Shown: piece after piece, positions 42,862 to 64,000 of the stretch | How positions within the stretch are numbered: the stretch's first letter is position 1 | How the letters are laid out: each line of letters starts with the position of its first letter | Source of the DNA: Symbiodinium sp. CCMP2592 | Taxonomy: Eukaryota; Sar; Dinophyceae; Suessiales; Symbiodiniaceae | Assembly: GCA_905221615.1 (NCBI GenBank) | Contig: CAJNDT010002035.1 | Span: forward strand, 491,501 to 555,500 | DNA: 64,000 nucleotides | Direction: 5' to 3' | Program-made: the position numbers and the translations under genes | The notes under the pieces: model-generated | What the model was told of the DNA's origin: nothing | Database searches by the model: none | What the model saw: only the letters and a program-made list of their open reading frames with translations

Positions 42862-43240
42862 GCGTCACCTTGCGGAAACACACGGTCAAACCATACAATC
42901 CAATTCTTTGATGACGTCTTGCATGCTTTGTTTCGCAGCGTCAGCTTGCGGAAACACGTTGTCAAGCCATACAATCCACTTCTTTGATGATGTCTTGCAT
43001 GCTTGTTTGCGCAGCATCACCATGCGGAAACGCATTGTCAAGCCTTGCAATCCAGTTCTTTGATGATGTCTTGCATGCTTGTTTGTGCAGCGTCACCTTG
43101 CAAAAAACATATTGTCAAGCCTTGCAATCCACTTCTTTGATGATGTCTTGCATGCTTGTTTGTGCAGCGTCACCTTGCGGAAACACAGTGTCAAACCACA
43201 CAATCCGCTAATAGCGGTAGGATCGGTAGGTTTAAGTCGT
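42862..43240. repeat. 76-bp satellite, about five units
   Basis: The anchor 'gc(g/a)tca(c/g)c' lies at 42862, 42938, 43014, 43090 and 43167 (spacing 76, 76, 76, 77). Each unit contains 'tttgatgatgtcttgcatgc'. It is not CRISPR-like, because the whole unit is conserved and there are no unique spacers. Confidence 0.92.
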
Positions 43241-45149: not shown

Positions 45150-46270
45150 CCACAGGGAAAAAGCACTGCCGATGTGAGCGCTGCATGTTGATAGTTGACC
45201 ATGTAAGACTCCAACAACCCTTTGATGCATGTGCTTACATTGGGGAAACTTCGGTGTTTGCCCGCTGTTTTGTACGTCACTCCTAAAACGGTTTAAATCA
45301 TCGCATACATGGGGAATCGCCTTCCGCGCTGATATTAACGCCGGTCTGGCTGTCATGGAAAATCATGGGAGTCTGGAACCGTAATGCAGGACAGTCCACG
45401 AAAAAGACATTGCCGATGCCGATGTGAGCACTGCACGCTTAAAATTGACAATGTAATACAATGTATGACTCCGACAACCCTTAGATGCATGCGCTTACAT
45501 CGGGGAAGAGGCTTTCGGCCACTGTTTTTCGCGTCACTCCTGAAACCATTTGAATCAAGCGCTTACATGGGGAAAGGCCTTCGGTGCTGATATTACTGCA
45601 GGTCTGGGCGTCATGGATGTCTGGAGCTGTATACTGCAGGACTGTCTAGGCAAAAGGCACTGCCGATCTGAGCGCTGCACGTTTAGAATTGAGAATGTAA
45701 GACTCCAAAAACCCATAGATGCATGCACTTACATCGCGGAAAAGGTTTTCGGCCATGGTTTTTCGCGTCACTCCTGCAACAACTTTAAATCAATCGCTTA
45801 CATGGGGAATGGCTTTCCGTGCTGATACTACTGCTGGTCTGGGCATCATGGAAATCTGGAGCTGCGATGCGAGATTGTCTAGGCAAAATGCAATGCCGAT
45901 GTGAGCGCCGCACGTTGAAAGTTGACAATGTAGGACTCCAACAACCCTTAGATGCATGCGCTTACATCGGGGAAAAGGTTTTCGGTCACTGTTTTTTGCG
46001 TCACTCCTGAAACCATTTGAATCAAGCGCTTACATGGGGAAAGGTCTCCGTGCTGATGTTAATGCAGGACTGGGCATCATGGAAATCTGGAGCCGTAATG
46101 CAGTATTGTCCAGGCAAAATGCACTCATGACGTGAGCGCTGCACGTTTAAAGTTGACCATGTATGACCCCGACAACCCTTTGATGCATGCGCTTAGATGG
46201 GGGAAAGGGTTCCGGGCGCGACTTGTCGTGACTTCTTGAATCATGCGCTTACATGGGGAAAGGCCACCCG
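45150..46270. repeat. About 230-bp satellite, about five units
   Basis: The anchor 'gcttacatggggaa(a/t)gg' lies near 45,558, 45,795, 46,023 and 46,240, with an earlier diverged unit near 45,302. Each unit holds 'gccgatgtgagcgctgcac' and 'gatgcatgcgcttacat'. Confidence 0.85.
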
Positions 46271-48023: not shown

Positions 48024-51000
48024 CTAATCCGAGTCGCCCTTGCGCCCCTTCTTCCGCTCAAGCTTGTCGACCCGCTTTTGCAGCTTCTTGACCACGCCCC
48101 AGAGCACCACGGAGAGCTTCTGATAATCGAGGGCCATCAGCTCCCTCCCGTCCAGATTCTTCGTTTTGCACATGGTCTCTCCTAGTTTCCCGCTGGCTTG
48201 TACGTCCTGGGCCACGAAGCCGATCTGCTCCTTGCCGCCGTCGATGCGGTCGAAGATCTGCGCCTCCACCGCATCGAAGGTCTGCTGCAGCTCCTCCTCC
48301 GGGATGGCCCGGACGTTCTGTTTGAGCGCCCGGTCGCTGAGGTTGACAAACCCATACCCAAAGATGACCTCGCCGTTGTTGCTACCCCCGATATTGGGCT
48401 CGATGGCCAAGTTGGCCAACCCTGAGGTGTTGTTGAAGCTTATGAACTGGAACTGCGCGTTCAGCTCGCAGTTGCCGCCCGCCAGCACCTTGAGCTCCGC
48501 CACGCCGCCCTGATTGTTGGCGTCGAGGAGCAGCTTGGCATCCCCCGTCGCAGCCGCATTCCGCACCACAACGCCCACCGTGCCGTCCGTGGGCCCCACG
48601 GCGATTTGCTCCAGCAGCGGGCTGAGCACTTGGACTCCACTGGTGCCGCCCGACAAGCTCAGGAAGGGCAGGCTGGCCTCGGGGCCCAGCACCCCGTTGA
48701 TCCGCACGGTGTCGTCCATCAGAATCCCATTGGTGCCCCCCTGCACCGTGAGCCAGGGCGCCGCCGGATCGGCGCGCACCAGGGGCGCTTCGAGCCTGAG
48801 GTCGCTCGTGATCTCCTGCGTGGCCGTCACCGAGCTGCTGCTCGCAAAACTCCCCGTGGCAGCGGTGCTGCCGACGAAAAACTGGGCGAAGTCCGCCGTG
48901 GTTGCATTCAAAGTGCCGTCCGAGCGCACGGTGATGTCTTGCTCCAAGCCGATGCTTCCGGCAGCGAAGGAGGCCACCAATGTGCCGTCTTCGGCGCGGA
49001 TGGTGGTGGTGGCGTTCCGGAGCTGCAGATCTGCAGCGGCGCTCTGCAGCAGTGGTGTCTGCACGAAGCTCGTTGCTGTGAGGCTGTTGACGGTGAGGTC
49101 CGCCGTGGGGTCCACTCCTGGGCTGTTCTCCAGGTCGGTGACGCGCTGGCCCAATTGAAGTTGGCTATCAATGGATAGCGGGTGTCAGACTGTCCCTTGC
49201 TGATTTGGAGGGTCGACCCATTCCCCAGGATGGGCTGGGCGGAGAGGGGCGATTGGCACAGAAGGTTTCTGATGATGCGAGGGGTGAACTGGGTCTGGGC
49301 CAAATTGAAGATCCCACCGCCCTCTGCACCGGGGCTGTTGACGAAGTAGCGGGCATCCAAAGGTCCGAGGTCGTTGGTCCTCAGGAATCGGCCGTCTGCC
49401 TCGGCCTTGGTCCAGGAGTCGCAGCGGAGCCGCAGCGTACTTTGATTGCCCAGAATTGCGTCGCCCACCAGGGGCGCCTCCAGCAGCAAATTGCGGATGA
49501 TCCTGGGCGTGAATTGCTCCTGCACCAAGTTCCAAATCTGCCCCGACTCTGCGCCGGGAGCCCGCACGAAGTAGCGTAGGTCCGCATCCGCCTGGGTCTG
49601 AAAGCCCGCGCCGGCGATGGCATCGTCGATCTCCGTTTGGGTGCGCCCTGACGTCCAGTACTGCGTGAAAGTGGCCGTGAGCAAAGAGTCCAGCTCGGTT
49701 CGGGGGTAATATGCCAGCAGCTCGTTGGCCACGTAGGCCTGCGTCTGGGCCTGGTCGTAGTAGGCGGAGAGATCCACGTTGCCCAGGGCGTTGGCTATCT
49801 GCTGGTCTACTTCGGCCCGCGTGTAGAAGTCCAGCAGAGCAGTTATTATCTTGCTGTCGACTTGACCGGAATCATCATAGCTCGACAGCGCCGAGCTGAT
49901 GCTGGAGCTGACGGAGGCATTCGTTGCATAGTTGGCCAGCTCTCCCGCCACGAAGCTCGAGACCTCGGCTTGGGTCCAATAAGCCAGCAGGGCCTGGTCG
50001 ATCAGGAACTACACCCCCGCAGCGTCCTGGTACTGCCCGACGTTCAGGGCAGCGATGGCATCGGAGATGGCGGTGTTCATCTCCGAAGTGCTGCTGTAGG
50101 CTCCCAGGGCGTCGGCGATGGCCGTGCCCACCTGCACCGTCGTGCTGTAGGCGGCCAGGGCGGCCAGAATTTCGTTGCTGACCCAGGCCTCGCTGGCGAG
50201 CGGTGCCAGCAGGGCGTCCGTCTCCTCGCGCCTGTAACTGTTGCAGGCGAAGCTGAGGGTCCAATTGTCGTTTGCAAGCTGGATGCTCAGGGGGCCCGTG
50301 GCGTGCAAGTTGCGGATCTGATTGGTCCCGGCCAGCAGGTCCCAGGTAATCTCGCCGGGCCAGGCCGGAGCGTTCACGAGATTGGTGGCTCCGCCGAGCG
50401 TGGCGATCTCCGCCAAGATGGCATCGATGCATGCCTGCAGCGCCGTGATCTCGCTGGGCAGGGCAAAGGGCCCCGCGCTCTGCAGCGCCAAGATGTCGGC
50501 GTCGTGGCCGTCCAGCCTGCCGTCTCTGACCGCCAGGGCGGCGTCCAGAGCCGCCTGCTGGACGTGGGCCAAAAGAGCGGTGGCGACCCGCTGGTCCACG
50601 TCGGCGGCTGTTTGCCGGGCCGCCAGATCGATCGCCAGCTTACCACCGATTTCAGGGCGTAGTTTGCAGCAACAGTCGCCAACGTTGCGTTGTTTGTGGA
50701 GGCGATGCTGCTGTTCATCGCAGCCGTCGTGGGATGGGTGGCCAGCTTGAGGTCTACCGAAGCGGGCGTGCTCTTGCCATTGACCTCCACCTGAAGAGCA
50801 TCCAGAGCCGACTGGTTTGCCTTGCCCGCCAGGCCCTGGGTCAGGCTCGTATTGACGGCCACGAGGCCGGAGGCGTTTGCCGCGATGGAGCCCTCTGCTG
50901 CGGCGAGGTCCGCGGCCAGAGCGTAAGGAGTCAGATCCGGAGCTGCGGGCAGGGCGGCCACCTGGCCCTGCAGAGCTGCGATGGCGGCGGCGTTGACTCC

Positions 51001-51159
51001 GATGGCCGCGGTGTGTGCCGTGTGCTCTGTTTGCGGGGTGTAGGCTGTGAGGACTGTGGCGAGCTGCCCGGCGGAGATGCCCTGGAGCTCGATGACCGGT
51101 GGTGCCGTGACGCCGTCGTCGAGGATCCGCCCGGTCAGGGTGGAGGGAAAGAGTGACAT
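48024..51159 (-). pseudogene. Virion fibre with C-terminal peptidase S74 chaperone, three lesions
   Basis: The start ATG 51159 reads MSLFPSTLTGRIL. The body is a long Ala/Ser/Thr-rich fibre of short repeats (YALAADLAAAEGSIAAN; two DLRYFV/DARYFV-PGAE-FTPRIIRNLL repeats). Lesions are a frame change near 50,640, an in-frame TAG at 50011-50009 with good fibre sequence on both sides, and a frame change near 49,165. The last 100 residues are an S74 intramolecular chaperone (SDRALKQNVRAIPEE, IGFVAQDVQ, LDYQKLSVVLWGVVKKLQ), which trimerises phage and viral fibres and cleaves itself off. The total is about 1,045 codons. It lies between the capsid gene (97 bp upstream) and the integrase (2 bp downstream). 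Confidence 0.75.
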
Positions 51160-51256
51160 TTATCTAGTGCCCCCGGGCTCTGCGCCGCCGGTCCAGGCTA
51201 GCGGTGTTCGAACAGGGCAAAAAAGGTGAAACAAATCGCTCAAAACGCCCATATCA

Positions 51257-52463
51257 CTAGTCGAGGACTGAGACGCCGGACCCTGAAACCGTGACGATCT
51301 GATATGAGAGGAGGTGGATGTATATTCTTTGGACCCGGTCCGCCTGCATGTTCTTAAACGAAAACCTCGCAAGGTCGCCGGAGCGTGTGCTGATGCCGCT
51401 CAAGGGGTGTTTCGGGACCCTTTCCACGGGGAAGGCGCAAATGAATTGATTGTTGTTCCACAGATTGTCGGCGATTCGCATGTTCTTGATGCTCGAATCG
51501 TAGGTTCCGGCCAAAATCTCGAGGAAGTGGAAGTGCTCCGCGTCGCTGGCCATAGGGTATCTGGGGTACTGGAGCGCCCCCAATTGCATCTGGGACTCGA
51601 GGGAGTTCGCCGAGAACTGGCTGCCGTCGCCGGGGTGCTCGAAATTGGAGCACTCGCCGAGCAAATCGTCCGAGTCCCGGAAGGTGACGAAGGCCCCTAG
51701 CAGCTTTGTGAAACTTCTAGCTACAGTAACGGCGAAAGAAGTGCTGCCGGCGGGGATGCTGGAGACCTGCGTGTGCATCGTGGGATACGCGAAGACGAGG
51801 CTGCGGCCCGAAAGGAGGATTTTTTGGTAGCTTTCGTACAATGCCGAGTCCAGGGTGACCTGACTGGCCAAAACTCGGACGTTTTCGATGGTGCAGGGCG
51901 TCGGCGGCCTCTGCAAACTCCAGCTCCAGCACCAAGTTCAGCTGAGGGGGCAAGAACTTGCCGGCTTGGAACATCCCGATGAGCGTGGGCGCCATCAGGA
52001 CGTCCTTGAAGTTCTCCGCGGGGATGGGCGCCGGGGTGCCTCCTGCGAGCTCCCAGAAGCCCGTGATGCCCTTGTTTCTAAACCATTCGGCCGGTTTCAG
52101 TAGCGAGTACAGGTGGCAGCTGCGCCCGTACTCGGAGATGTCATCGCAGCGCTGGCCGTTCGCGAAGAGCTGGACCCGCTTGATGAAGCACGAGGGTTCC
52201 TGGGTGCCGGGGTTCAACTGCAGAGTCGTCGAGTTGTTGCGCACCCGGAAGGCGATCTTGACGCTCTCTGGATCGATCAAATCCATCCCGGAGGTCAAAG
52301 GTATTCTTGCCACTCGGGATGTGGTGGGAGTGAAGGTACTGAGCGAACTCGGGAAATACTGGACGTCTTTTCGACTCTGAATGTAGTTCACATTGGATGA
52401 ACCCAATTTGTAATCGAGGCTCTTGACGAGCTCGTCTTGCACCGCTTCGATGACGTTTTGCAT
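51257..52463 (-). pseudogene. Double-jelly-roll major capsid protein, one frameshift
   Basis: ATG 52463 opens MQNVIEAVQDELVKSLDYK. Residues 100-160 contain CFIKRVQLFANGQRCDDISE and YSLLKPAEWF, and the frame is lost near 51,905 after LVLELEFAEAADA. The next frame continues with ENVRVLASQVTLDSALYESY and KILLSGRSLVFAY, then AGSTSFAVTVARSFTKLLGA, to a stop at 51257. This N- and C-barrel layout and these motifs fit double-jelly-roll capsid proteins of Polinton-like viruses. I rely on pattern memory, so a structure prediction would be decisive. A single indel is the only lesion I see. Confidence 0.65.
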
Positions 52464-52478
52464 GACCCTTTACTATAC

Positions 52479-53292
52479 CTATGCAAGTTCTGGTTCGTTC
52501 CTCAACTGGTCGAACGACGGCTGGGTGCCGAGAGGCCCGCGGTCCGAGCGGGACTGGCGGCTGATGCGGTCGCTGTCGGAAGAGACCGGGATCGGGACGT
52601 TGTTGAGCCCGAAGGGCGTCTGTGCCTGGGGCTGCTGCCGGCGTCGCACCGGGCGGGCCACGATGCGTTGCTGCGGCTGCGCCTGGGGCTCCTCCTCCGA
52701 GGTGTTGATCCTGAAGACCTGCGGGCGCTGCTGCCGGCGCAGCTCCTCACGGCGCCCGATTCCTGCATCCCATTCAAGGTCTGCACATCCGTTGCGCGGC
52801 TGGCCCTTGAGGCGTCTGAGTCCGTGCCGCCGCCCGTGGCTGCTCCCCAGCCGCCAGCCCATCATGTGCGAAGCAGCGTTCAACCCTCCTTCGATGGCCC
52901 AGGCCGTTCCCACGAGCGCTGCGCCTGCGCCCGCAACGGCCAGGCCTCCCGCCGCAGCGCCCACCGTTCCCGCGGCTGCGAGGGCTCCCTCACCCAGGAG
53001 CGCAAGAGCTCCTCCACCCACTTCCGCCGCAGTTGCTCCCTGCCGCCGCAGCCTCCGCCGCCGTGGCAAAGCCTTCCGCAGCTTCCGCCTCTGCCATCTG
53101 CTGCGATGCAAAAGCCTCGATGTCTTGGGCGGCCGCCCGCTCGACCTCCACGGCTCTCTGGCCCGCCTGCTCGAGCAGGGGCTCCACCTCGCTGGGCCTC
53201 CCGATGATTTGCGGCGCAGGGACCGGCGCCAGTCCAGGCGGCCTCCTGGGGATCCTCAGGGTTCTGTCGAGCCAGTCGCCTCCGCCCCTCAA
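52479..53292 (-). pseudogene. Virion-type protein with Gly/Ala hydrophobic segment, frameshifted
   Basis: The first part (from about 53,290; DWLDRTLRIPRRPPG, PSEVEPLLEQAGQRAVEVER) is helical and Ala/Glu-rich. Near 53,040 the reading switches to the next frame, which carries about 50 residues of Gly/Ala/Leu (GGALALLGEGALAAAG to WAIEGGLNAASHMMGW), membrane-like. A basic, Gln-rich tail follows, ending NEPELA. It stops 15 bp before the capsid gene. It could be a minor capsid or membrane protein; no family is recognised. Confidence 0.45.
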
Positions 53293-53724
53293 AATGTTGA
53301 AGGTCTGGTTCTCGGCGACGCTTCGGGTGCCGCCGCAGCGCCCGCAGCGCCTCCGGCGATGATCGCTTCCGCGGCTTGAATGCCTGATTCCCTCATCCGA
53401 CCTCCGAGGCTCGGTGGCCTCGGTGCATCGAGCCCGTCGTTGCGGAGGGCCTGGCCTGGATCCATGCCTCCGTCGTCGGAGTCCGGCAGGAAGCTGGGCC
53501 GAGTGAACTCGGGCGGGCGGGGAAACGGAGTTCCGGAGTAGCCCTCGTCGGCCGTTTCAAAAGCAGCCGCCGGGTTGATCTGGGTGTGGGGCATGGGCGC
53601 CTCGCTGACGGGCTCGGGTGCGTTGGGGTAATCATCGAGATAGAAGTGACTGGATGTGTAGATGCTCGCTTTGCGATTGGGCAGGTCCAGGTTCAGGGGC
53701 TCGCCCTCTTGGATGAAGCCTAAA
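53289..53724 (-). pseudogene. 3' part of a viral gene split by LINE copy 1
   Basis: From the inserted element's left border the frame continues IQEGEPLNLDLPNRKAS and then a Pro/Asp-rich body to a stop at 53289. A start at ATG 53753 exists, but it lies inside the retroelement sequence. The natural 5' end is at 56813-56875, on the other side of the insertion, in the same codon phase. The product has no recognised family. It was about 160 residues before interruption. Confidence 0.65.
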
Positions 53725-54690
53725 ACCGCTAAATCACTCAAGTCGGCGGTCATGCGACAATTGAGGTCTATTACCAGCATGCCAGTGCATAAAACACGCA
53801 TTTCAGATGACAAGTTGCTTGATATGTTTGGTCTGCAGTCTCCGATTGCTATGTTGTTACATTCTACAACTAAAGAGCTGGAGAACGCGAAGGTGGTCTC
53901 ATCGTATGTGGATGGTCAGGAGCCTTACGTGCTGCAGGACATTGCTTCGTTAAAGAGTGTTGTTGATGCTCTTCGAGGTCTTCATTCTGAAATGCAGCCG
54001 CTACCTGATGTGCACGACGATGCAGGTGACCATGCTGAGGAGCAACTTGCAATTGTTTCAGGTGGCCATTCGAACACAGATCAACAGCTGTCAGGAGAGC
54101 AAGATCTACCATATCGGTGTGAGTTATGTCAGGATGCGTTTGAAACGCAACGGGCCCTCAGAGTGCACAAGTGGTGCAAGCATCGTGTGAAGGAGAATAC
54201 AGCAGTGTTTGATAAACAACGGCATTCAATGGAAGGCCTGCCTATATGTAGGTATTGCCGTCAGAAGTTTACACGATGGTCAGGGCTTGAAAGACACATC
54301 GTCAATCGCCGATGCACTAAACTTCCCATTGAGACTGATGTTGCTATTGAGATCATTGAAACAGAAAAACCTCACACAAGTGCTGATGCAGACTCTGTTC
54401 CAGTCATCCTGCGTTCGTGTATGTCGACCATGGCTGAGAACCCGGCGACTATTCACGACATGCCTGAGATTGCAGCACACTTATTACATCATTGATTGTG
54501 GAGTGTGTAACCAATGGCTGGTTTCCCCAGGTCTGATGAAACAGCATTACCGCTACACTCACAAGAAGGAGTTTGACCTGCTGCAGTCCCAATGTGAATC
54601 ATTGCTTAAATCCGTTGTGCGCGGATGCATCCAAAGCCTGGAAACGTCACAAATGCACGGTGGCTTGGCAAGTATCGGCTTTGAGTAGTT
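53725..54690 (+). pseudogene. Copy 1: RT C-terminus and zinc fingers, frame-broken
   Basis: The first frame to 54495 contains CELCQDAFETQRALRVHKWC and CRYCRQKFTRWSGLERHIVN. The third finger (CGVCNQWLVSPGLMKQHYRY) is in the next frame from about 54,480. The last Cys/His group (NPLCADASKAWKRHKC) is in the third frame from about 54,590. The order matches copy 2, with two indels. Confidence 0.6.
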
Positions 54691-56471
54691 TAGTGAATGC
54701 TGGGTACCATGGAGACGCCGATGGATCAAATCATGGAGATGTTCGGCGCGGTAAATCCCAATCCTCATCTACGCAAACGAGAGTCTCAGGAAGAGCCGAC
54801 ACAAGCAGCAGCAAAGTTCATCAAGGGCAAGGGCAAGGGCAAAGGAAAAAAAGGAGGCTTCGGACCAAGTCCACAGCAGCAAGGCTCTTTCGGTCCCCCA
54901 GTCCGATACCATCAAAGCCCATTCGTAACCACGCCAGCAACAACATCAACGATGGATCAAGAGCAGTGGGAGCAGTACATGCAGACTCTGCTTGCAGCGG
55001 TAGCTCGGCTTGCGCTACGGGTGGACAACGAGGTCCAAGTCCTCAAACAAGACTTCAGCTTGGTTCTATGGATGAGGCCAGGCGAACATACTGCACTACA
55101 GATGATGTTCAACAAGGCCAAGGAGTGGAAGGACAAAGCCATGAAAACCGATGTGGACGAGACTCCCACGTTGCGAACAACGCTTGCAATCGCCATGGTT
55201 CAGGAAGTGATCAACCGAGTAGGGCAAGTGGCAGGGGATGCGGACAAAGCCCGCAAACTTCAGGAAGTGGGGTGGAGAGATCCGACAACGGGTTGGCCTT
55301 ACCAAAAGTGGGATCCGGAGTCCAAGATGCTCGTGACGGTGTCGGAGCGGGCACCGTTGAAGGATATGGAAATACTCCAGCTCTTGGAAGAATTGAAGAC
55401 GAAGCTGCTGGGGCAGACCGTCATGAGATTCCACTCAACACGACCATTATCGTCCGACATGAAAGGATTGGCCACGTTCCTGCTCGAGATCAGCCAAAGA
55501 TCCAAAGAAGCACAGCGCGCATGGGAGCTTCTACATGTTCTCATGGGTTCATCGGTGTGGCAGCTGACTGCGGTTCAGTACAAGCGCGAGGGTTGGAAGA
55601 AATCGATCCTGAACAAGATGGTGCGAGAATACTTGGGACAGTGCCTCAACTCATTCTTTCAAACCCCCAGAATTTCTGCTACATGCATGCGCTCATTCAG
55701 TGTTTGTCATGGTGCGTGGCTAGGGCCTTTCATCCAGATTGGTGTACGGGATTCGGTCGAGGTGAGAAGGCATGGCGACTTTTGCTTGCCAAAACAGGCC
55801 AGCCGGTGCACATTTACCACATGATGCTATGGAAGATCCTACTGTTTAACTGGCCATACCCTGATCATCAACATGATGTGTGTGAATTCTTTTCCTTTCT
55901 CAGTTCGCGAATACAGGTTCCGTGGCTATGTGGAGTATGGCAAGCCAGGAGCCCCATGGCAGGGTTACCAGCTACAGTGATGGAAGTGGGCGATTCGGGC
56001 TCCGAGGCGATTACATTATGGTTCCACGAATGCTCACTGCGCGAGTCTCATTCTTCACATTCTGGGGACTCTTTGCAGTCCATGCTAGATAGATGGAGTC
56101 AGCAAACTCACGTATGTGCTTTCGTACATCCTCCTCATGTTCTCGCGTTGCGTCTGGAGCGGACAGTTCAGTCGGAGCAAGTGGGTATTGTGAAACATGA
56201 GTTCAGGTGCTCATTGGAGCATCCTCGATTGCAGATTCCTCAGTTCATGAATAATCAAACTGATGTGCAACATTGCTCTTACGAGATCGTGGGTGGTATA
56301 TGTCATCATGGACCAACATATTCATCTGGACACTATCAGGCTTTTCTCTATGCTCCAGCGAGGGGCGTATGGATTTGCGATGATGACAGGCCTGCGGTAT
56401 TCCACATGCGAGCTCCGGAATGGTTAGAACGCAAAGTTTACATGATCTTTGCTCGCAGGAGCGGTGAGTGA
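54573..56471 (+). CDS. Copy 1 polyprotein end with USP/C19 ubiquitin protease
   Basis: The frame of 632 codons stays open from the last zinc-finger group to TGA 56469-56471. Residues about 45-360 are low-complexity (Gln/Gly/Ser/Arg) and lie over the +1-frame gene. The USP domain follows: the catalytic Cys codon at 55677 in SNPQNFCYMHALIQCL, the QQDxxEF-like box DHQHDVCEFF, and the His codon at 56331 in SSGHYQAFLY. WICDDD may supply the acidic residue, and the end is VYMIFARR. All catalytic positions look intact. USP enzymes remove ubiquitin from substrates. In a retroelement the enzyme may shield element proteins from degradation (inference). Confidence 0.7.
   Translation: MTCCSPNVNHCLNPLCADASKAWKRHKCTVAWQVSALSSLVNAGYHGDADGSNHGDVRRGKSQSSSTQTRVSGRADTSSSKVHQGQGQGQRKKRRLRTKSTAARLFRSPSPIPSKPIRNHASNNINDGSRAVGAVHADSACSGSSACATGGQRGPSPQTRLQLGSMDEARRTYCTTDDVQQGQGVEGQSHENRCGRDSHVANNACNRHGSGSDQPSRASGRGCGQSPQTSGSGVERSDNGLALPKVGSGVQDARDGVGAGTVEGYGNTPALGRIEDEAAGADRHEIPLNTTIIVRHERIGHVPARDQPKIQRSTARMGASTCSHGFIGVAADCGSVQARGLEEIDPEQDGARILGTVPQLILSNPQNFCYMHALIQCLSWCVARAFHPDWCTGFGRGEKAWRLLLAKTGQPVHIYHMMLWKILLFNWPYPDHQHDVCEFFSFLSSRIQVPWLCGVWQARSPMAGLPATVMEVGDSGSEAITLWFHECSLRESHSSHSGDSLQSMLDRWSQQTHVCAFVHPPHVLALRLERTVQSEQVGIVKHEFRCSLEHPRLQIPQFMNNQTDVQHCSYEIVGGICHHGPTYSSGHYQAFLYAPARGVWICDDDRPAVFHMRAPEWLERKVYMIFARRSGE
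54709..55824 (+). CDS. Copy 1 overlapping +1-frame protein
   Basis: ATG 54709 has a strong context (taccATGG). The N-terminus METPMDQIMEMFGAV is followed by a Lys/Gly block (KGKGKGKGKKGG), a Gln/Pro linker and a helical core: RLALRVDNEVQVLKQD, EVGWRDPTTGWPYQKW, and VMRFHSTRPLSS. It aligns with the copy 2 protein at 62271-63227 across its length. It lies one base (+1) from the polyprotein frame and runs 140 nt into the USP region before stopping. Its basic block suggests nucleic-acid binding, perhaps a nucleocapsid-like role (inference). Confidence 0.7.
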   Translation: METPMDQIMEMFGAVNPNPHLRKRESQEEPTQAAAKFIKGKGKGKGKKGGFGPSPQQQGSFGPPVRYHQSPFVTTPATTSTMDQEQWEQYMQTLLAAVARLALRVDNEVQVLKQDFSLVLWMRPGEHTALQMMFNKAKEWKDKAMKTDVDETPTLRTTLAIAMVQEVINRVGQVAGDADKARKLQEVGWRDPTTGWPYQKWDPESKMLVTVSERAPLKDMEILQLLEELKTKLLGQTVMRFHSTRPLSSDMKGLATFLLEISQRSKEAQRAWELLHVLMGSSVWQLTAVQYKREGWKKSILNKMVREYLGQCLNSFFQTPRISATCMRSFSVCHGAWLGPFIQIGVRDSVEVRRHGDFCLPKQASRCTFTT

Positions 56472-57344: not shown

Positions 57345-57980
57345 ATGGTTTTTACATTGCTGCTGATTTTTCTGTTACATTGGAGAACTTTTCTGGACAG
57401 AACAGACGGCACTGAAGCCCCACCTGGCCACTACGCTACAGGAGAGATGGAAGAAGCATTCGAATGCCTACTGGCATCAGAACCTGGAAGTGGTAGCAGA
57501 GCGCATGCGAGCGCTGACAGTGTTGCAGAGGCCACGAGAAGGGCCACTCCAATATTGGAGAGATCCATATCTGAAGCTCTGGACACTGGGCAGCTGGCAT
57601 TTTACCTCTGTTTCAGAGGCGTACCCCAACGGGCTATCACAGACATCGGGATCCATGTATATTTTAAACAGTACGCAAACCCAGATGCTACAGCGCGACG
57701 TGAGATCACTGGGCAACTGGAACGTGAGATCAGCGGGAAAGACATGGCAGGAACCCTGGAACTGTTTCGCCAACTTTTGGAGGGAGACCATCGTGAGCAG
57801 TTTTATGAAGACATTTACAAGCTGCTGGAGCGACATGTGCGTAGCATGCAGAGACCGACTCCGCTTGAAGACTTGTTGCTTCCTCTGCCCGAAGCAAGTA
57901 ACACACCCGAACCTTGCTCCCCTTCAACAGTTCTGGACTCTGACTCTTCGGAGTCGAACGCCACGCTACCCTACTGCTGA
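57345..57980 (+). CDS. Candidate ORF1 of the retroelement
   Basis: ATG 57345 gives 211 codons. A hydrophobic start (MVFTLLLIFLLHW) is followed by acidic and then helical sequence (DTGQLAFYLCFRG, REITGQLEREISGKDMAGTL, EQFYEDIYKLLERHVRS) and a Pro/Ser-rich tail. The helical middle looks like real protein. It resembles no ORF1 family I know. An overlapping frame (57505-58578) competes for the same region. Confidence 0.5.
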   Translation: MVFTLLLIFLLHWRTFLDRTDGTEAPPGHYATGEMEEAFECLLASEPGSGSRAHASADSVAEATRRATPILERSISEALDTGQLAFYLCFRGVPQRAITDIGIHVYFKQYANPDATARREITGQLEREISGKDMAGTLELFRQLLEGDHREQFYEDIYKLLERHVRSMQRPTPLEDLLLPLPEASNTPEPCSPSTVLDSDSSESNATLPYC

Positions 57981-58578
57981 CCCTAAGCCCCAGCACTATC
58001 TACCTTCTCGTCACGTAGCTCTGTTGGTACCGATGATGTTCAAATGCAGAGGCGCGAAGCTCAGACTTTACACGTGCTGTGGGGCTATCACATGGTTCTG
58101 GTTTGCCTGTTACGGGTTCTCCAGGTTATCGAGATTCTACGGCAAACGCGGCCATGCGTCGCTGCACAGATGCAATGTACAGAGGCCCCAAAATGCACAT
58201 CCATCTACGCCCCAGTATCCTGCAAACGCCCCACCCCTCTCTCCAGGAAGAATGAGCCGCCTCGGTCCCAAGTCCGAGGCTAGCAGGCCGGTGAAGACAT
58301 TAAACTTCAGTGGAATTGTGCGTGTCATGCTGCTCTGGATAATCGCTGCACAATTTCTGTCTAAGCCTGCTAGTGGTGCGAGGGTTGCTGCTGCTTCCAC
58401 AACAGCAGCTGGAGTCGAAGCACATCAGGCTCCATCGAGCTCGCTGCCTCAGGCGGCGAAGCCCTGTGGGACCCGTGAAATCAGAGCGCAACCGGCATAT
58501 AGCAACGTCAGGAAACGTGCCTTTCGGCGCGCGCTTGTGCGCGCAGGCGCAAGGCTCCACCATGTATCGAGGACGTAG
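57505..58578 (+). CDS. Alternative upstream ORF overlapping ORF1 and ORF2
   Basis: It stays open in the frame after ORF1 from ATG 57505 to TAG 58576-58578. It is Trp- and Cys-rich at first (CVACRDRLRLKTCCFLC), with a hydrophobic segment near the end (IVRVMLLWIIAAQFL) and a basic tail. Its stop overlaps the ORF2 start by 17 nt, which would suit termination-reinitiation. Whether it is translated is uncertain. Confidence 0.35.
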   Translation: MRALTVLQRPREGPLQYWRDPYLKLWTLGSWHFTSVSEAYPNGLSQTSGSMYILNSTQTQMLQRDVRSLGNWNVRSAGKTWQEPWNCFANFWRETIVSSFMKTFTSCWSDMCVACRDRLRLKTCCFLCPKQVTHPNLAPLQQFWTLTLRSRTPRYPTADPKPQHYLPSRHVALLVPMMFKCRGAKLRLYTCCGAITWFWFACYGFSRLSRFYGKRGHASLHRCNVQRPQNAHPSTPQYPANAPPLSPGRMSRLGPKSEASRPVKTLNFSGIVRVMLLWIIAAQFLSKPASGARVAAASTTAAGVEAHQAPSSSLPQAAKPCGTREIRAQPAYSNVRKRAFRRALVRAGARLHHVSRT

Positions 58579-61500
58579 ACTTACTTGGCAACAGCTTGCG
58601 GGTGCCAGAGGTCCTGCCGAACCAGCCGCACAGCCTGGCAGACACAGGCGGGAAGTAAGGCAAGAGTGCAGTGAGAGTCCGCATTCTCCTTGCATGATCA
58701 GTTGGAATGTGGGAGGGCTCTCGAACTCCATTCTTGATGAACTTATCATCTGGCTTGAAACTCGTAAACACATCAAGATTGTTCTGCTACAAGAAACACG
58801 GTGGCAGTTTAGCTCGGAATGGTCCAGTGAGCATTGGAACATCATACATGCCGGAAACACCAAACAAAAAGGCTCGGGAGTCATGACCATGATTTCGAAG
58901 TCGCTGTGCAGTGCTGAAGACATCAGAGTTCAGGAGATTGTCTCGGGTAGGGTGCTGCATACGCGAATCCCGGGATATGGAGGCCATAATCACATTGACT
59001 TGCTCAATGTCTATCAGCATGCGTGGGACCAGCGCGCAGAGGCGGGCGAACTGAAGCGCAAACGCGCGTGGATCCTTGCGAAGATCGATGCGTGCATTCA
59101 GCAGATTCCTTGGCGCAACTTGTGCATATGTGCAGGGGACTGGAACGTCCAGTTGGAGCCGATGTCTGACCTGATTGGTAATAGCACTAACATCCGTGTG
59201 GGACAAGCGCAATCTGCCCCGGATATGGCGTCCCTTACAGATGTCATGATTGCACGCCAATTGGTGGGTTTGAACACTTGGACGGGGCCCAAACGCAAGG
59301 CTTACACCTTTACACACAATGGGGGACGCACCCAGATTGACTTTGTTTTTGCTCGCAAGCACCAGGTTACACGCCAGATGCGCAGTTGTCATGCTCTTGA
59401 GGGCTTCCCGGTTACTGCCTGGCGTCAATCAGGACTGCATCGCCCCCTCCAGGTAAGCTTGGATTACCGCTGGATACCGAGCAGCACGCCTCAGCAGTCC
59501 CGCCGCATTGACCATGATGCCATCGCCACGGCGGTCAGGCAGTGCACACCCAAACTTCATGAATACCAACTTGATGTACAGACTGTCCTGGCCCGGAACC
59601 CCCCTAGGGATACGAGTGCATTGCATCAGGTGCTGTATGACTGCTGCCTTCGCCACTTCCCAGCCTCGACACAGAGGCGAGAATATGCCCACAACCACGC
59701 TGAAGTCCGTAATGTGGTGCACAGCCGCTGGTTGCACCTGCAGAGAGGCAAGTACCACAGGAGGTTTGCAGCTGCTTGCATGTCCAGCGCCTGGCACTGC
59801 TGGCATCATTTTGCGAGATTTAGAGCCCTCCGCAGAGAGGCCAACAAAGCATCCAGAACTGCTCGAAGACAACGGTACGAGAACCTGTTGCAAGAGGCGG
59901 AGAAATTTGCCAGACAGCAAAACACACATAAGATGTTTTCCATCATTAGGCAATTGGCGCCGAAACAGCCGCATCGCAAAGTCAAGATTTACGGCAAAGA
60001 AGGCGAGATTCTCAGCCGTCAAGAGGAGGTTGCATGTCTCAAAAAGCACTTCTGTGATATCTTTCAGGGCGCAAGTTGCGATTGGACTCATCCCATAGAG
60101 TCCCCTGCTTCTCCGCCAGCCCCTGAGACAATTTGCGCGGCGCTGGAGCGCATCCCGTTACGCAAAGCGGTCCCTGCACATATGGCTCCGGGCGCAGCTT
60201 GGAGAGCAGCTGCACGTCAGGTCACGGACTTGGTTCATCAGGAAGCCTGCAAAGTCTGGGCGGCTGCCTCAGTACCGCAAAACTGGCGTGACGGGTGGCT
60301 GGCCCTAGCTGCCAAGCCTCAGAAATCAGGTCGTGGCCCGGCCGATTACCGGCCATTATGCCTGCAGGACCCGAGTGGCAAAGCAGTGATAGGTATATTA
60401 GCGGACCAGATCCGACCCACAGTTCGCTTGTATGCCAACAGGTTCCCACAGCATGCATACTTAGCGGGCAGATCAACTGAGGGTGCGTTGCTCAGTGTGT
60501 TCCACAAGTGCAGGGAAATCCGTGGCCTCACGCAAGCAGCGGGGAACAGCGTCTTTGCCAGGCGCAGTGGCCATACTGCGGAGCCGTACACAGGTGGGCT
60601 GATTTTGTCATTGGACATGACGACTGCATTTGACACAGTTCCGAGAGCGCATGTTCGCGATTCCCTGATTGAAGCTGGCGTTGCACAAAGTGACGTGTCC
60701 ATCATCATGTCATGGCTCACAGGTGCGACGTACCATCTCAAACATGCTCACATTAACCTGCGTATCATCACGGAGAGAGGCGTGCGCCAGGGCTGCCCAC
60801 TTTCGCCACTGGTTTGGGCCTGCTTTACATGCTACATTGCTAAACGGCTGACTGACGTGATCTGTCTTGATGACTTGCAGATTTACGCCGACGATTTCAT
60901 TTGGAGTTGCATTTTCCACACTAAACAGCAATTTCTGCACACACTCAGGACGGTGCCACTCTTCATACAGAAGCTTCGGCAGTATGGACTCAGGGTAAAT
61001 CTCAACAAAACGGCTGTTTTAATTCGCATGGCCAGGCAAGAGGGCAAAGCTTTACTTAAGCTGCACCTGTGCAAGACCGCCCAAGGCACTTTCCTGAACA
61101 TCTTGAGTGATAAGCCCCTCCGTATCCCGGTGAAGAAATCGCATGTATACCTTGGATGTGTCATTTCGCTGTTTGATTTTGAAAGCTTGACGGTTCGTCA
61201 CCGAATCGAGGCCGCTCGGAATCAGTACTCTAGGCTACGTAGTGTTTTGACCTCCACAAGATGCATGAGCATGAAACGCAGGGCAAGGATTTGGCTTGCG
61301 TGCATATGGTCAACCTTGACCTACGGCTGGACCTGTTGCGGTTGTTCGGGCTTTCTCTTCACTCAGGTCTGCGGTCTTGTGACCACACAGATGCGAGCCA
61401 TCGCACGGTCACCACGACACATCGCACACACCACGAATGAGGAAGTCTTTGCTATGTTGGGCTTACCAGGACCGGCTGCGCTGATGCAGCACGCCTTGGA

Positions 61501-64000
61501 AAACTTGCGCCAGCGCCTTCAGTTTGTCCGGCAGACTGACGACACCATCATGTGCAACCCGACGCTGCATGCTCAGGCCAACTGGGCGTTTGAGGCGCTG
61601 ACTGATGCCATTGCCAGCAAAGGCAGATTAGAGCGTGTCACCGGAACCCAGGGCGTCGCTTGCACTGAGTGTGGTATCTACTTTGACACTGAAAGTGCTA
61701 TGCGCAAGCATCGTACGCGCCAGCATCCCGAGGCGACAGGTGTGCAGAAACTTGAACTCAGTCAGGTACGGCGTGAAGTTGTGTGTGTCGACGGAATGCC
61801 TGTCTGCCGAGGGTGTGGCAAAGCTTTCCACCATATGCACACATTGCTCAAACATGTGCGCAATCAGCGTTGCCCAGGCTTGCTCAACTTAGCCAATGAC
61901 AGTTCGCGTGCACCGGATGAACCCGTTCCTGTTGTGCAGCGCGGTGACCTCATTAATGCATGGGGCAAGGGGGGCACTTGTGCGCTTCTCGCCTCGCTCA
62001 AGTCACAGCCTGAGCTTAGAAAGGAGCTCATGCAACACTGTTGTCTCTGCCGTCAGTGGTTCTCCGATTGGCGCCACATTAAGACACATATGCAAAAGTC
62101 GCACAAGGAGGATTACCAAGCTTGTCATGAGGGTGCAATTGCAGACTGCAGAGGCTTGACTGGGGCCGTGCTCAATCCTTGTGAATACTGTGAGTCCTCT
62201 GTAACTAGACGTTCCCGGCATGCTGTAAGCTGCCCTATTCTCTATCAAGTTGCCTTTGCTTGCAGAGTTCATGGCAGACCTCACGAAAGACCAGATCGTC
62301 TCACTCTTCGGGGGAGTGCTGCCAGCAGTGAGCTTAGCCGCGGGCTCGCAGAGACCGCCAGCCACCCCGCAACAGGCGGGGAGAGGGTCGCAGAAGTCGG
62401 GGTTGACGGAGCGACCACCGAAGTACCACAAGCACCAGACCAATGGCAAAGGCAAAGGCAACGGCAAGGGTCGCTACAAGGACAAGCGGCCCAGAGAGGA
62501 CTCGGAGCATACTTCGGCTCAGGAGGGAGACAATCTGGATCCTCAGTTGATACCCCTCATTGCTCAGCTTTGCCTTCGGTTCGAAGACGCAATAAACATA
62601 TTACGGTTGGACCGAGCGTATGTGATGCTGTTCAAAACAAAGTCGGAAGAGTCGATTGTGAAGACCCTCCACGATCTCTCCCAGAGATGGGAGGAACTCA
62701 AAGAGGCCAAACAAACGGACTCAGCCAAGAGGATCGCGCTCTTCAAGGGCATGCTGATGGAGCTCCAGACGAGGATCAAAGGCATGATCGAGAAGGAAGA
62801 CAAGGTCAAGCAGCTGATTCAGATGGGGTGGATGTCCAAGCAAGAGGGTCGGGAGCCGATGTGGCTCCCACTCGTATGGAATGTGGAACAGCAGAAAGAC
62901 GTGCCGTGCCCCGACATGGGACCCCTCCCCCACACAAAGGCCATGCAAGCTCTGGACACATTGCTGGAATACGCATGCGGCCAGGTGATACACAGATTTC
63001 ATCCCACGAGGCCACTGGTTCCGGAGCACGCAGGCGAGATCCTGGAGTTCAAGATGGAGGTGAGCCTGAAGGGCGTTGCGCCGACTCAGGTCCACGATGC
63101 ATTGACGCAACTCAGCAACTCAGCGCTCTGGTTGTTGATCGGCGCCCGGATGCGCCCGGACGGCCTCCGGAGATCAGCAACGGCACAGCAGTTGCAGAAG
63201 CTGCTCGCAGGAAGGTGCTGCGCCTAGCACTCCGAAACACTGGAAACACATGTTACCAGAACGCCTTTGTGATGTCCTGGCTTTGGGCCCTTGTGAATGC
63301 AAACGCCAATCAGGTGGGCGGATACAACGATGAGGGATTAGGTCGCGGGCGTAATATCATCAACGCACTCCTTACGGGCTCCTGCGACAGGCTCTCCAGC
63401 ATTTTCGCATGGTCGTCTATCATGCAGAATTGGCCGCGCCCTCAACAGCAGCATGACGTCTGTGCATTTGCGTCACACGCTTTAGCCAAACTCAAAACCC
63501 CACTGATGGGGGGCAGCTGGGAGGCTAGGCGCGAGGATCCTGTTTTCCGCGTCGTGGATATGGGGTCCCAAGCTCTGCCCATCACCATGGCCATCCCTGA
63601 AGGCAAACACACACTGCGTGAATGCATTGAGGCATGGCAACATCAAAATGCCAAACATGCTTTGGGATATGCTCCAGACTTACTTATGCTCCAGCTCGGT
63701 CGCTTCCGTCAAAGATTGCACAGACGTGTTCGCAAATACCAGGGCATTGTGATGCTGCCTTCACGAGTGCAGATGCCGTGCTTTACGGCACCCAATGAGC
63801 TCGGCACTCACAATGTGGATTATAGGATCATTTCGGGAGTCTTCCACCTGGGGAACACGCCGGCCTCAGGTCATTACCGGACCTTTCTGAGCGATGCTGA
63901 AGTGCGCGGGATTTCGGATAATCCTGGGGAGCCCCATGGTGCTCTCGCGAATGCCTGGGAAACTGATGACGGACGTGTGCCTATCAAGCTTGACCATACT
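58562..64000 (+). CDS. ORF2 polyprotein: APE endonuclease, RT, zinc fingers, USP (3' end off window)
   Basis: I read every codon from ATG 58562 (ccaccATG) to the window edge, 1,813 codons with no stop. Residues 40-300 are an APE-type endonuclease (ISWNVGGL, LLQETRW, ICAGDWNVQLE, RTQIDFVFA; the last motif is GLHRPL rather than SDH). Residues about 580-900 are the reverse transcriptase (YRPLCLQD, LSLDMTTAFDTVPR, GVRQGCPLSPL, IYADDF with Asp-Asp at 60890-60895, LRVNLNKT, YLGCVIS). Residues 1033-1226 hold four Cys/His modules (CTECGIYFDTESAMRKHRTR; CRGCGKAFHHMHTLLKHVRN; CCLCRQWF…H…H; CEYC…H…C). A low-complexity link over the +1 ORF follows. From residue about 1555 it is a USP/C19 protease: Cys codon 63251 in GNTCYQNAF, box QQQHDVCAF, LLMLQLGRF, and His codon 63872 in ASGHYRTFL. 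No lesions are seen, so it may be active. Confidence 0.85.
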   Translation, partial: MYRGRRLTWQQLAGARGPAEPAAQPGRHRREVRQECSESPHSPCMISWNVGGLSNSILDELIIWLETRKHIKIVLLQETRWQFSSEWSSEHWNIIHAGNTKQKGSGVMTMISKSLCSAEDIRVQEIVSGRVLHTRIPGYGGHNHIDLLNVYQHAWDQRAEAGELKRKRAWILAKIDACIQQIPWRNLCICAGDWNVQLEPMSDLIGNSTNIRVGQAQSAPDMASLTDVMIARQLVGLNTWTGPKRKAYTFTHNGGRTQIDFVFARKHQVTRQMRSCHALEGFPVTAWRQSGLHRPLQVSLDYRWIPSSTPQQSRRIDHDAIATAVRQCTPKLHEYQLDVQTVLARNPPRDTSALHQVLYDCCLRHFPASTQRREYAHNHAEVRNVVHSRWLHLQRGKYHRRFAAACMSSAWHCWHHFARFRALRREANKASRTARRQRYENLLQEAEKFARQQNTHKMFSIIRQLAPKQPHRKVKIYGKEGEILSRQEEVACLKKHFCDIFQGASCDWTHPIESPASPPAPETICAALERIPLRKAVPAHMAPGAAWRAAARQVTDLVHQEACKVWAAASVPQNWRDGWLALAAKPQKSGRGPADYRPLCLQDPSGKAVIGILADQIRPTVRLYANRFPQHAYLAGRSTEGALLSVFHKCREIRGLTQAAGNSVFARRSGHTAEPYTGGLILSLDMTTAFDTVPRAHVRDSLIEAGVAQSDVSIIMSWLTGATYHLKHAHINLRIITERGVRQGCPLSPLVWACFTCYIAKRLTDVICLDDLQIYADDFIWSCIFHTKQQFLHTLRTVPLFIQKLRQYGLRVNLNKTAVLIRMARQEGKALLKLHLCKTAQGTFLNILSDKPLRIPVKKSHVYLGCVISLFDFESLTVRHRIEAARNQYSRLRSVLTSTRCMSMKRRARIWLACIWSTLTYGWTCCGCSGFLFTQVCGLVTTQMRAIARSPRHIAHTTNEEVFAMLGLPGPAALMQHALENLRQRLQFVRQTDDTIMCNPTLHAQANWAFEALTDAIASKGRLERVTGTQGVACTECGIYFDTESAMRKHRTRQHPEATGVQKLELSQVRREVVCVDGMPVCRGCGKAFHHMHTLLKHVRNQRCPGLLNLANDSSRAPDEPVPVVQRGDLINAWGKGGTCALLASLKSQPELRKELMQHCCLCRQWFSDWRHIKTHMQKSHKEDYQACHEGAIADCRGLTGAVLNPCEYCESSVTRRSRHAVSCPILYQVAFACRVHGRPHERPDRLTLRGSAASSELSRGLAETASHPATGGERVAEVGVDGATTEVPQAPDQWQRQRQRQGSLQGQAAQRGLGAYFGSGGRQSGSSVDTPHCSALPSVRRRNKHITVGPSVCDAVQNKVGRVDCEDPPRSLPEMGGTQRGQTNGLSQEDRALQGHADGAPDEDQRHDREGRQGQAADSDGVDVQARGSGADVAPTRMECGTAERRAVPRHGTPPPHKGHASSGHIAGIRMRPGDTQISSHEATGSGARRRDPGVQDGGEPEGRCADSGPRCIDATQQLSALVVDRRPDAPGRPPEISNGTAVAEAARRKVLRLALRNTGNTCYQNAFVMSWLWALVNANANQVGGYNDEGLGRGRNIINALLTGSCDRLSSIFAWSSIMQNWPRPQQQHDVCAFASHALAKLKTPLMGGSWEARREDPVFRVVDMGSQALPITMAIPEGKHTLRECIEAWQHQNAKHALGYAPDLLMLQLGRFRQRLHRRVRKYQGIVMLPSRVQMPCFTAPNELGTHNVDYRIISGVFHLGNTPASGHYRTFLSDAEVRGISDNPGEPHGALANAWETDDGRVPIKLDHT
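62271..63227 (+). CDS. Overlapping +1-frame protein in the ORF2 linker
   Basis: It has 318 codons from ATG 62271 (gttcATGG) to TAG 63225-63227, just before the USP Cys box. The start MADLTKDQIVSLFGGVLPA parallels METPMDQIMEMFGAV of copy 1. A basic Lys/Gly/Asn block (NGKGKGNGKGRYKDKRPRE) comes next, then a helical core (QLCLRFEDAINILRLDRAYV, IQMGWMSKQEG, QVIHRFHPTRPLVPE). The frame offset from ORF2 is +1, as in copy 1. Expression could be by internal initiation, or joined to the USP by a -1 shift; neither is proven. Confidence 0.75.
   Translation: MADLTKDQIVSLFGGVLPAVSLAAGSQRPPATPQQAGRGSQKSGLTERPPKYHKHQTNGKGKGNGKGRYKDKRPREDSEHTSAQEGDNLDPQLIPLIAQLCLRFEDAINILRLDRAYVMLFKTKSEESIVKTLHDLSQRWEELKEAKQTDSAKRIALFKGMLMELQTRIKGMIEKEDKVKQLIQMGWMSKQEGREPMWLPLVWNVEQQKDVPCPDMGPLPHTKAMQALDTLLEYACGQVIHRFHPTRPLVPEHAGEILEFKMEVSLKGVAPTQVHDALTQLSNSALWLLIGARMRPDGLRRSATAQQLQKLLAGRCCA

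Follow-up and report, generated by a model that had tools for sequence, protein, structure and literature searches.

The 64,000-nucleotide window analysed here (Symbiodinium sp. CCMP2592, contig CAJNDT010002035.1, positions 491,501 to 555,500 of the forward strand) raises the question of whether one stretch of DNA inside a retrotransposon gene can be maintained in two overlapping reading frames, and what selection sees in each of them. The window contains two copies of a long interspersed nuclear element (LINE) whose second open reading frame (ORF2) includes zinc fingers (ZF), a low-complexity spacer and a C-terminal USP domain. X denotes the protein encoded in the +1 frame over the spacer; copy 2 is the element with X at 62271-63227, and copy 1 is the element with X at 54697-55824. 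It is very probable that X is a gene nested between the ZF and USP parts of ORF2 and constrained as a protein, and that the ORF2 frame of the same DNA serves as a stop-free spacer that tethers the USP domain. The features on which this reading rests are as follows.

62271..63227, plus strand: X of copy 2, 318 amino acids in the +1 frame, with a Lys/Gly-rich N-terminal part and a predicted alpha/beta C-terminal domain.
62270..63229, plus strand: ORF2-frame spacer over X in copy 2, rich in Gly, Arg, Ala, Ser, Pro and Gln and free of stop codons.
61652..62269, plus strand: zinc-finger region of ORF2 adjoining the overlap, with C2H2-like motifs and then a final CxxC..RHxxxC motif.
63230..63892, plus strand: predicted USP/UCH domain of ORF2 in copy 2 (35.5 bits, cut-off 23.9), with the Cys box NTGNTCYQNAF and the His box ASGHY.
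58343..64000, plus strand: ORF2 frame of copy 2, with predicted EEP endonuclease, reverse transcriptase, C2H2 zinc fingers, spacer and USP.
54697..55824, plus strand: X of copy 1, a distant lineage; its ATG abuts an in-frame stop codon.
54540..56471, plus strand: ORF2 frame of copy 1, comprising spacer and USP (UCH, 47.6 bits, residues 373-617).

The +1 ORF of copy 2 (62229-63227; ATG at 62271) lies 3′ of the zinc fingers and just 5′ of the USP domain. The initial annotation held that the two copies match each other in this frame and not in the polyprotein frame, and this was borne out: the X proteins share 24% identity over 216 amino acids (E=8e-16), whereas the ORF2 frame yields scraps of at most 20 bits in the spacer and aligns in its USP part alone (30%, E=3e-27). 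The +1 ORF of copy 1, which had been placed from 54709, actually starts at 54697. A search of 5.8 billion proteins with X returned 20 homologues at 41-69% identity, including Symbiodinium microadriaticum AK812_SmicGene44675, and scans of viral contigs and of genome contigs outside the host with the X alignment found nothing. The initiator methionine is kept in 15 of 22 aligned rows, namely those that cover the start in the X frame; the other seven are truncated, are mixed-frame gene models, or are copy 1. A search of the host genome with X gave 1625 candidates and 121 scored matches, one of which is copy 2 itself. The 40 top-scoring of the other 120 matches were taken with their flanks, and to these were added 12 weaker pieces, picked blind to the ORF2 frame and partly for long open frames, and the next 20 rows, read for X only; these 72 of the 120 matches (labelled L) and the two window copies make up the 74 copies considered below. 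The X frame has no stop codon in 69 of them, one in four and two in one. Among four lineages, X identity is 57-65%, whereas the ORF2 frame of the same DNA is 28-35% identical. The divergence of X codons is lowest at the second position and highest at the third in 15 of 15 pairs from six lineages, and the least variable base, the second of the X codon, is thus the wobble base of the ORF2 codon. X is under protein-level purifying selection, and the constraint in the +1 frame that the initial annotation proposed to look for in other copies is therefore present. A predicted model of the C-terminal 218 amino acids (mean predicted local distance difference test score, pLDDT, 72; predicted template modelling score, pTM, 0.73) suggests an alpha/beta domain, which has no convincing match to any known fold, the RRM and other folds of LINE ORF1p-type RNA-binding proteins among those considered. 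To judge from its Lys/Gly-rich segment and its context, X may bind nucleic acid.

The second frame is kept open as well. The ORF2 codons begin at the third base of the X codons, so that an ORF2 stop requires a T at that base before AA, AG or GA, and a T-to-C change at such a base is always synonymous in X. Over X, the ORF2 frame has no stop codon in 65 of the 74 copies, one in five, four in L066, and 19, 14 and 10 in L052, L056 and L060, respectively. The X tree divides these copies into the last four and an overlap side of 70, of which 65 have no ORF2 stop and five have one; the depletion of stops noted at first in the two window copies thus extends to many copies in the host genome. The third frame, by comparison, has at least six stops in every one of the 74 copies (mean 11.4; 6-21 on the overlap side). 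When the X amino acids were held fixed and the codons were redrawn given the next base, 18.2 ORF2 stops were expected in copy 2 and 13.1 in copy 1, compared with none observed, and none of 20000 samples was free of stops. Permutation of each copy's own synonymous codons gave expectations of 6.5 and 8.5, with 5 and 0 stop-free samples of 20000, respectively. In the longest copy from each of 26 overlap clusters (90% nucleotide identity), picked regardless of stops, T occurs at the third base of X codons at 0 of 460 sites before AA or AG, compared with 46 of 409 before AC or AT, and at 0 of 224 sites before GA, compared with 176 of 440 before GC, GG or GT. C/T differences between copies behave in the same way: in 15 copy pairs, some copies being used twice, none was found at the 274 stop-risk sites, compared with 137 at the 950 other sites, and in 10 pairs sharing no copy the matched contexts gave 0/122 versus 11/103 and 0/60 versus 15/118. 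Five single-coded control regions showed no significant avoidance in the corresponding frame (lowest P 0.16 in the T test and 0.08 by permutation). Throughout the 26 clusters, selection holds the ORF2 frame free of stops.

It might be supposed that codon usage or base composition accounts for the open frame, and the third positions of X in copy 2 are indeed poor in T outside the stop-risk contexts (25/91, versus 186/419 in the endonuclease and reverse transcriptase regions). This explanation is hardly tenable; it is refuted by the synonymous resampling, the permutation and the matched-context counts of T, each window copy has 15 stops in its third frame, and 10-19 stops occur in the same frame of the non-overlapping relatives.

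Whether the ORF2 reading is also constrained as a sequence is a separate matter. In the five copy pairs for which all three regions could be aligned, the differences at four-fold degenerate sites of X, each of which is the first base of an ORF2 codon, were close to those of the single-coded regions: 0.200 in X, 0.261 in the reverse transcriptase to zinc-finger (RT-ZF) region and 0.186 in USP for L028-L027; 0.222, 0.262 and 0.204 for L031-L030; 0.088, 0.073 and 0.082 for L041-L044; 0.610, 0.581 and 0.495 for L012-L017; and 0.595, 0.583 and 0.484 for L020-L017. The comparison covered 13 pairs, in eight of which the RT-ZF region was unalignable and its rows were left out. Six of these eight gave 0.222-0.292 in X and 0.143-0.299 in USP; of the other two, L034-L033 could not be aligned in USP and L031-L033 is almost identical there. 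Since the four-fold sites of X are about as variable as single-coded ones, the ORF2 reading seems to be constrained only to stay open. It is very unlikely that the spacer is a conserved functional protein region in itself. Such a role could be read into the 28-35% identity of the ORF2 frame between lineages and into the third-base identity, which exceeds that of permuted codons in three of six lineage pairs (P 0.02-0.03); however, the other three pairs show no excess, the four-fold sites of X change roughly as fast as single-coded ones, and the composition of the spacer is that of permuted X codons (hydrophobic share 0.161 versus 0.164 and 0.174 versus 0.176 in the window copies). The second frame is thus not visibly under protein-level purifying selection, although a weak constraint is possible, and selection seems to hold a frame open while acting on its sequence weakly or not at all. 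The proposal that both frames are selected therefore holds for X as a protein and for ORF2 as an open frame, but not for the ORF2 sequence itself, which is not visibly conserved. As a separate observation, L031 and L033 are nearly identical in USP (1 of 125 four-fold sites differing) and differ at 25 of 108 such sites in X, which is likely to reflect recombination or gene conversion.

Both readings of the overlap are represented among annotated proteins. A search with ORF2 residues 1270-1850 gave five matches, including the window's own P0022; P0021, P0023 and P0024 continue across the spacer into USP, and P0026 came from a further search with eight matches, two of them already known. Gap-free, codon-by-codon threading of +1 proteins onto these gave agreement at 355 of 356 codons for P0002 on P0021, 312 of 315 for P0006 on P0023 and 338 of 352 for P0004 on P0024; for P0007 on P0026 the figure is 291 of 294. 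Control threadings between mismatched subfamilies fit at about 70-75% (e.g., 242/324). The X and ORF2 proteins thus fit a single DNA in four other subfamilies. Best hits place USP in the ORF2 frame, with X at +1 to it, in 35 of the 40 host copies for which flanks were read, and ZF together with USP in that frame in 27, the remaining copies having some part missing or a disrupted frame. A single ORF in the ORF2 frame with at least 60 codons 5′ of X, the whole of X and at least 200 codons 3′ of it is likewise present in 27 of the 40, a set that overlaps with the preceding one but is not identical to it. This continuity from ZF across X to USP suggests that the purpose of the open frame may be to keep the USP domain attached.

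An alternative is that splicing joins X and its neighbours as exons of a single gene, in which case the overlap would never be read twice. Two gene models, P0022, which is that of the window itself, and P0025 from Symbiodinium sp. CCMP2592, do splice from ZF to X and from X to USP, but they lack conserved parts, one of the zinc fingers among them. LINEs copy through RNA, and introns would be expected to be lost. Moreover, a spacer that is spliced out would need no stop-free ORF2 frame, and the alternative is therefore highly improbable. Independently of this question, the splicing of P0022 and P0025 between ZF, X and USP drops conserved domains, and genes annotated here with introns may therefore be wrongly annotated retrotransposons.

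Several observations weigh against the view that the ORF2 frame is maintained as a tether. Some of the proteins do not continue into USP in one frame: P0026 terminates directly 3′ of the overlap, P0027 ends within the spacer, and P0012, P0013 and P0028 change frame in the spacer or at its end, owing to an indel or to the gene caller (for P0028 this was judged by reading). One ORF2 stop is present in each of L010, L034, L037, L040 and L073. L010 and L037 are also damaged elsewhere, with reverse transcriptase pieces in several frames; in L034 USP was not seen; L040 has neither reverse transcriptase nor ZF; and L073 was read in the X stretch alone. In L036-L040, five loci with near-identical X-USP and different 5′ extents, ZF shares its frame with X and not with USP wherever it was found, and L036 and L038 carry one RT-ZF-X ORF of 1308 amino acids with USP in another frame. 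A tether is thus not strictly required for the spread of a copy, at least with help in trans. The statistical contrast also has limits. The non-overlap copies have a lower T frequency before GA as well (22/41, versus 68/94 before other G codons), so that the contrast before G may be partly a matter of context; the copies and clusters share ancestry, and their counts are not fully independent; and the sample takes in 72 of the 120 X matches.

The copies rich in ORF2 stops bear on how the nested arrangement may have arisen or been undone. L052, L056 and L060 were refetched with flanks, and the non-overlap copies with flanks are labelled L061-L063; L066, which has four ORF2-frame stops, was read in the X stretch alone. 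In the stop-rich copies the order is RT-ZF-USP, followed by X as a separate downstream ORF whose first ATG is 21-66 nucleotides 3′ of the ORF2 stop. Their would-be overlap frame contains 19, 14 and 10 stops, and T is not avoided in contexts where a following A creates the risk of a stop (21/73 versus 14/65 in L052, L056 and L060). As a natural control, L061-L063 contain the same parts as the window element, in the same host genome and with homologous X and USP, but differ in that X is separate and downstream, without overlap, and stops are common in the corresponding frame. The three non-overlap copies and L066 form one clade in the X tree (97/98), and the three form one clade in the RT-ZF tree (100/100), from which the short rows L011 and L046 were left out. 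A single change therefore suffices to relate the two layouts; both trees are unrooted. If a separate ORF3 came first, some 10-19 stops would have been lost before USP was joined up again; if the overlap is the older layout, X escaped later. It is tempting, although tentative, to speculate that a gene-sized overlap has been kept over deep divergence with one of its frames selected purely against stops, that it arose as a separate ORF3 moved between ZF and USP (or, in reverse, that a nested gene freed itself), and that X is made from an internally trans-spliced mRNA, a route open in a dinoflagellate.

The surroundings of the X start bear on how X is produced, and two further features are relevant here.

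62226..62228, plus strand: TAA in the X frame, 14 codons 5′ of the X ATG, read from the sequence.
62263..62267, plus strand: CAGAG, a candidate trans-splice site with acceptor-like AGs 3 and 5 nucleotides 5′ of the X ATG and a pyrimidine-rich stretch upstream.

X could in principle be made by programmed frameshifting from ORF2, giving a fusion of endonuclease, reverse transcriptase, ZF and X beside the product that continues through the spacer into USP. The joint RT-ZF-X frame of L036 and L038, within a group of five loci with near-identical X-USP, would suit such a mechanism, as would the good conservation of the ORF2 stretch immediately 5′ of X, and in some copies (e.g., L017) the X frame is open for about 200 codons upstream, which counts against a start at the ATG of X. 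Frameshifting is nevertheless unlikely. The X methionine is kept in every aligned row whose X frame extends to the start; the X ATG directly follows a stop in copy 1 and lies 14 codons after one in copy 2, which leaves little room for an upstream slip site; and in the sister clade the position of the first ATG past the ORF2 stop implies that X has a start of its own there. Initiation at its own AUG is accordingly the favoured reading. Dinoflagellate mRNAs receive a trans-spliced leader. X is not the leading cistron in either layout, being internal or downstream, and so its likeliest route in a dinoflagellate would be an mRNA of its own that carries the spliced leader. Remnants of the leader on retrogenes have been described (available part of PMC12014239). 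An AG is present 2-13 nucleotides 5′ of the X ATG at 21 of 23 ATG starts, many of which are near-copies and at which such an AG is frequent by chance alone; the exceptions are L033 and the row WIN1, at its second ATG, where the AG is at 15 nucleotides. By hand reading, the P0001/P0021 lineage has no AG before its X ATG. The dinoflagellate leader sequence is absent from the window, and a relic leader joined to X was not found in the genome with one strict pattern of that sequence, a search of low power whose outcome speaks at most weakly against this route.

The most probable model is that some 300 codons are read in two ways. Read in the X frame, they would yield a conserved accessory protein composed of a basic Lys/Gly-rich segment and an alpha/beta domain, initiated at its own AUG and perhaps on a separate spliced-leader mRNA. 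Read straight through in the ORF2 frame, they would probably yield an unstructured, flexible spacer of low complexity that keeps USP joined to the reverse transcriptase, and the tethered USP might protect or activate the reverse transcriptase complex.

The remaining features concern the identity and the state of the element.

57447..57980, plus strand: ORF1 of copy 2, which matches the N-terminus of P0025 with 64% identity along 164 amino acids.
58697..59377, plus strand: predicted endonuclease domain, ORF2 residues 119-345 (Exo_endo_phos, 26.3 bits, cut-off 24.5).
60329..61054, plus strand: predicted reverse transcriptase domain, ORF2 residues 663-904 (RVT_1, E=1.9e-17).
53743..54628, plus strand: remains of the reverse transcriptase end and zinc fingers of copy 1, in two other frames, with nothing matching further upstream.

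ORF2 of copy 2 is open from 58343 past the end of the window (1886 amino acids within it), and Exo_endo_phos and RVT_1 both score above their Pfam cut-offs in this one ORF, as in an EEP-type LINE. The zinc fingers match zf-C2H2_4 below its cut-off, and their Cys/His columns are invariant in four lineages. UCH scores above its cut-off in both window copies; the catalytic Cys box and the GHY box are kept in P0021, P0023 and P0024 and, by eye, in both window copies, and USP/UCH deubiquitinases carry the clan label C19. The element is, on its predicted domains, a LINE-type retrotransposon with an ORF2 of endonuclease, reverse transcriptase, zinc fingers and a C-terminal USP deubiquitinase. Copy 1 consists of the reverse transcriptase end, zinc fingers, X and USP parts alone; it is damaged 5′ of the spacer, with RT/ZF pieces in frame 1 and then frame 2 and USP in frame 3, and the 5′ parts are absent from it as from L040. 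No further copy of the element was found in the window outside 52-64 kb (tblastn, 25 proteins, E≤1e-4). P0023 and P0024 match copy 2 in frame 1 to about 58545 and in frame 2 beyond, so that the extreme N-terminus of ORF2 in copy 2 is out of frame.

A Pfam scan of ORF1 of copy 2 gave nothing above cut-off. A frame-1 ORF overlapping ORF1 (57367-58578, plus strand) runs on into the ORF2 N-terminus, as in P0023 and P0024. A second overlap at ORF1 was considered and set aside as possible but unsupported; the offset-1 frame has no stops there (permutation P=0.03), yet the endonuclease control behaves alike (P=0.02), and the upstream part of P0024 is incompatible with ORF1 in that register. Elsewhere in the window, a GC-rich block (0.62-0.63) of ORFs on the minus strand (48908-53915) resembles a DNA-virus gene cluster, and one of its ORFs (51717-52469, minus strand) has, by eye, a capsid-like appearance. 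The best Pfam match in this block, among four ORFs, was E=0.08, the best PHROG match, among three ORFs, was E=0.02, and tblastn of ORF 51717-52469 against phages was empty. A set of short tandem arrays at 39946-40654 recurs about 1.5 kb further on, at 41474-42195, probably as a duplicated segment, and long-period tandem repeats are found at 45154-46211 and 42862-43206 (a 231-bp unit in 4.4 copies and a 76/153-bp unit).

The nearest analogue of the arrangement is the hepadnavirus PreS region nested in the polymerase spacer. The polymerase ORF encloses the PreS/S ORF, which is offset downstream by one nucleotide and whose PreS part covers a flexible spacer, and in the non-enveloped nackednaviruses the overlap is absent and stops occur in the S-congruent frame (available part of PMC5604429). 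As far as that source goes, the two systems share a complete ORF inside a reverse transcriptase polyprotein, an N-terminal part over a spacer and the existence of un-nested relatives. The element described here differs in that it is an algal LINE, its spacer joins zinc fingers to a deubiquitinase, and its overlap is confined to the spacer and does not extend over the reverse transcriptase; X is apparently no envelope protein, as far as its sequence tells. Among LINEs, the NeSL and Utopia elements encode an N-terminal Ulp1-like cysteine protease (available part of PMC4640811) and thus also place a protease for ubiquitin-like proteins in a non-long terminal repeat retrotransposon ORF beside a reverse transcriptase and zinc fingers. 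By contrast, the protease domain of the present element is a C-terminal USP/UCH, and its endonuclease is of the EEP and not the restriction-like type (PMC4640811); the available part of that paper describes no nested gene. SymbioLINE-Dnmt elements of Symbiodinium are LINEs of the same algal group that likewise carry extra protein domains, namely a DNA methyltransferase, mostly in an upstream ORF (PMC5890265). They differ in that their addition is a methyltransferase, and the main text of that paper mentions neither ubiquitin nor a protease. No LINE with a USP domain or with a gene nested in ORF2 was found in the full-text literature by title or opening of the abstract, a body in which subscription papers are mostly not covered; PMC9412976, in its available part, concerns host genes and not such a LINE.

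Long overlapping genes on the same strand are familiar in viruses, but in cellular genomes they are uncommon and difficult to demonstrate. For this element, dozens of copies, a test of stop avoidance at synonymous sites and un-nested sister copies together make a quantitative case, and a clean one, in which an open frame is selected and its sequence is selected little or not at all. The element and its sister clade also provide a setting in which the gain, or loss, of a gene overlap can be reconstructed. Furthermore, the predicted USP deubiquitinase would be an addition to the kinds of protein that LINEs carry.

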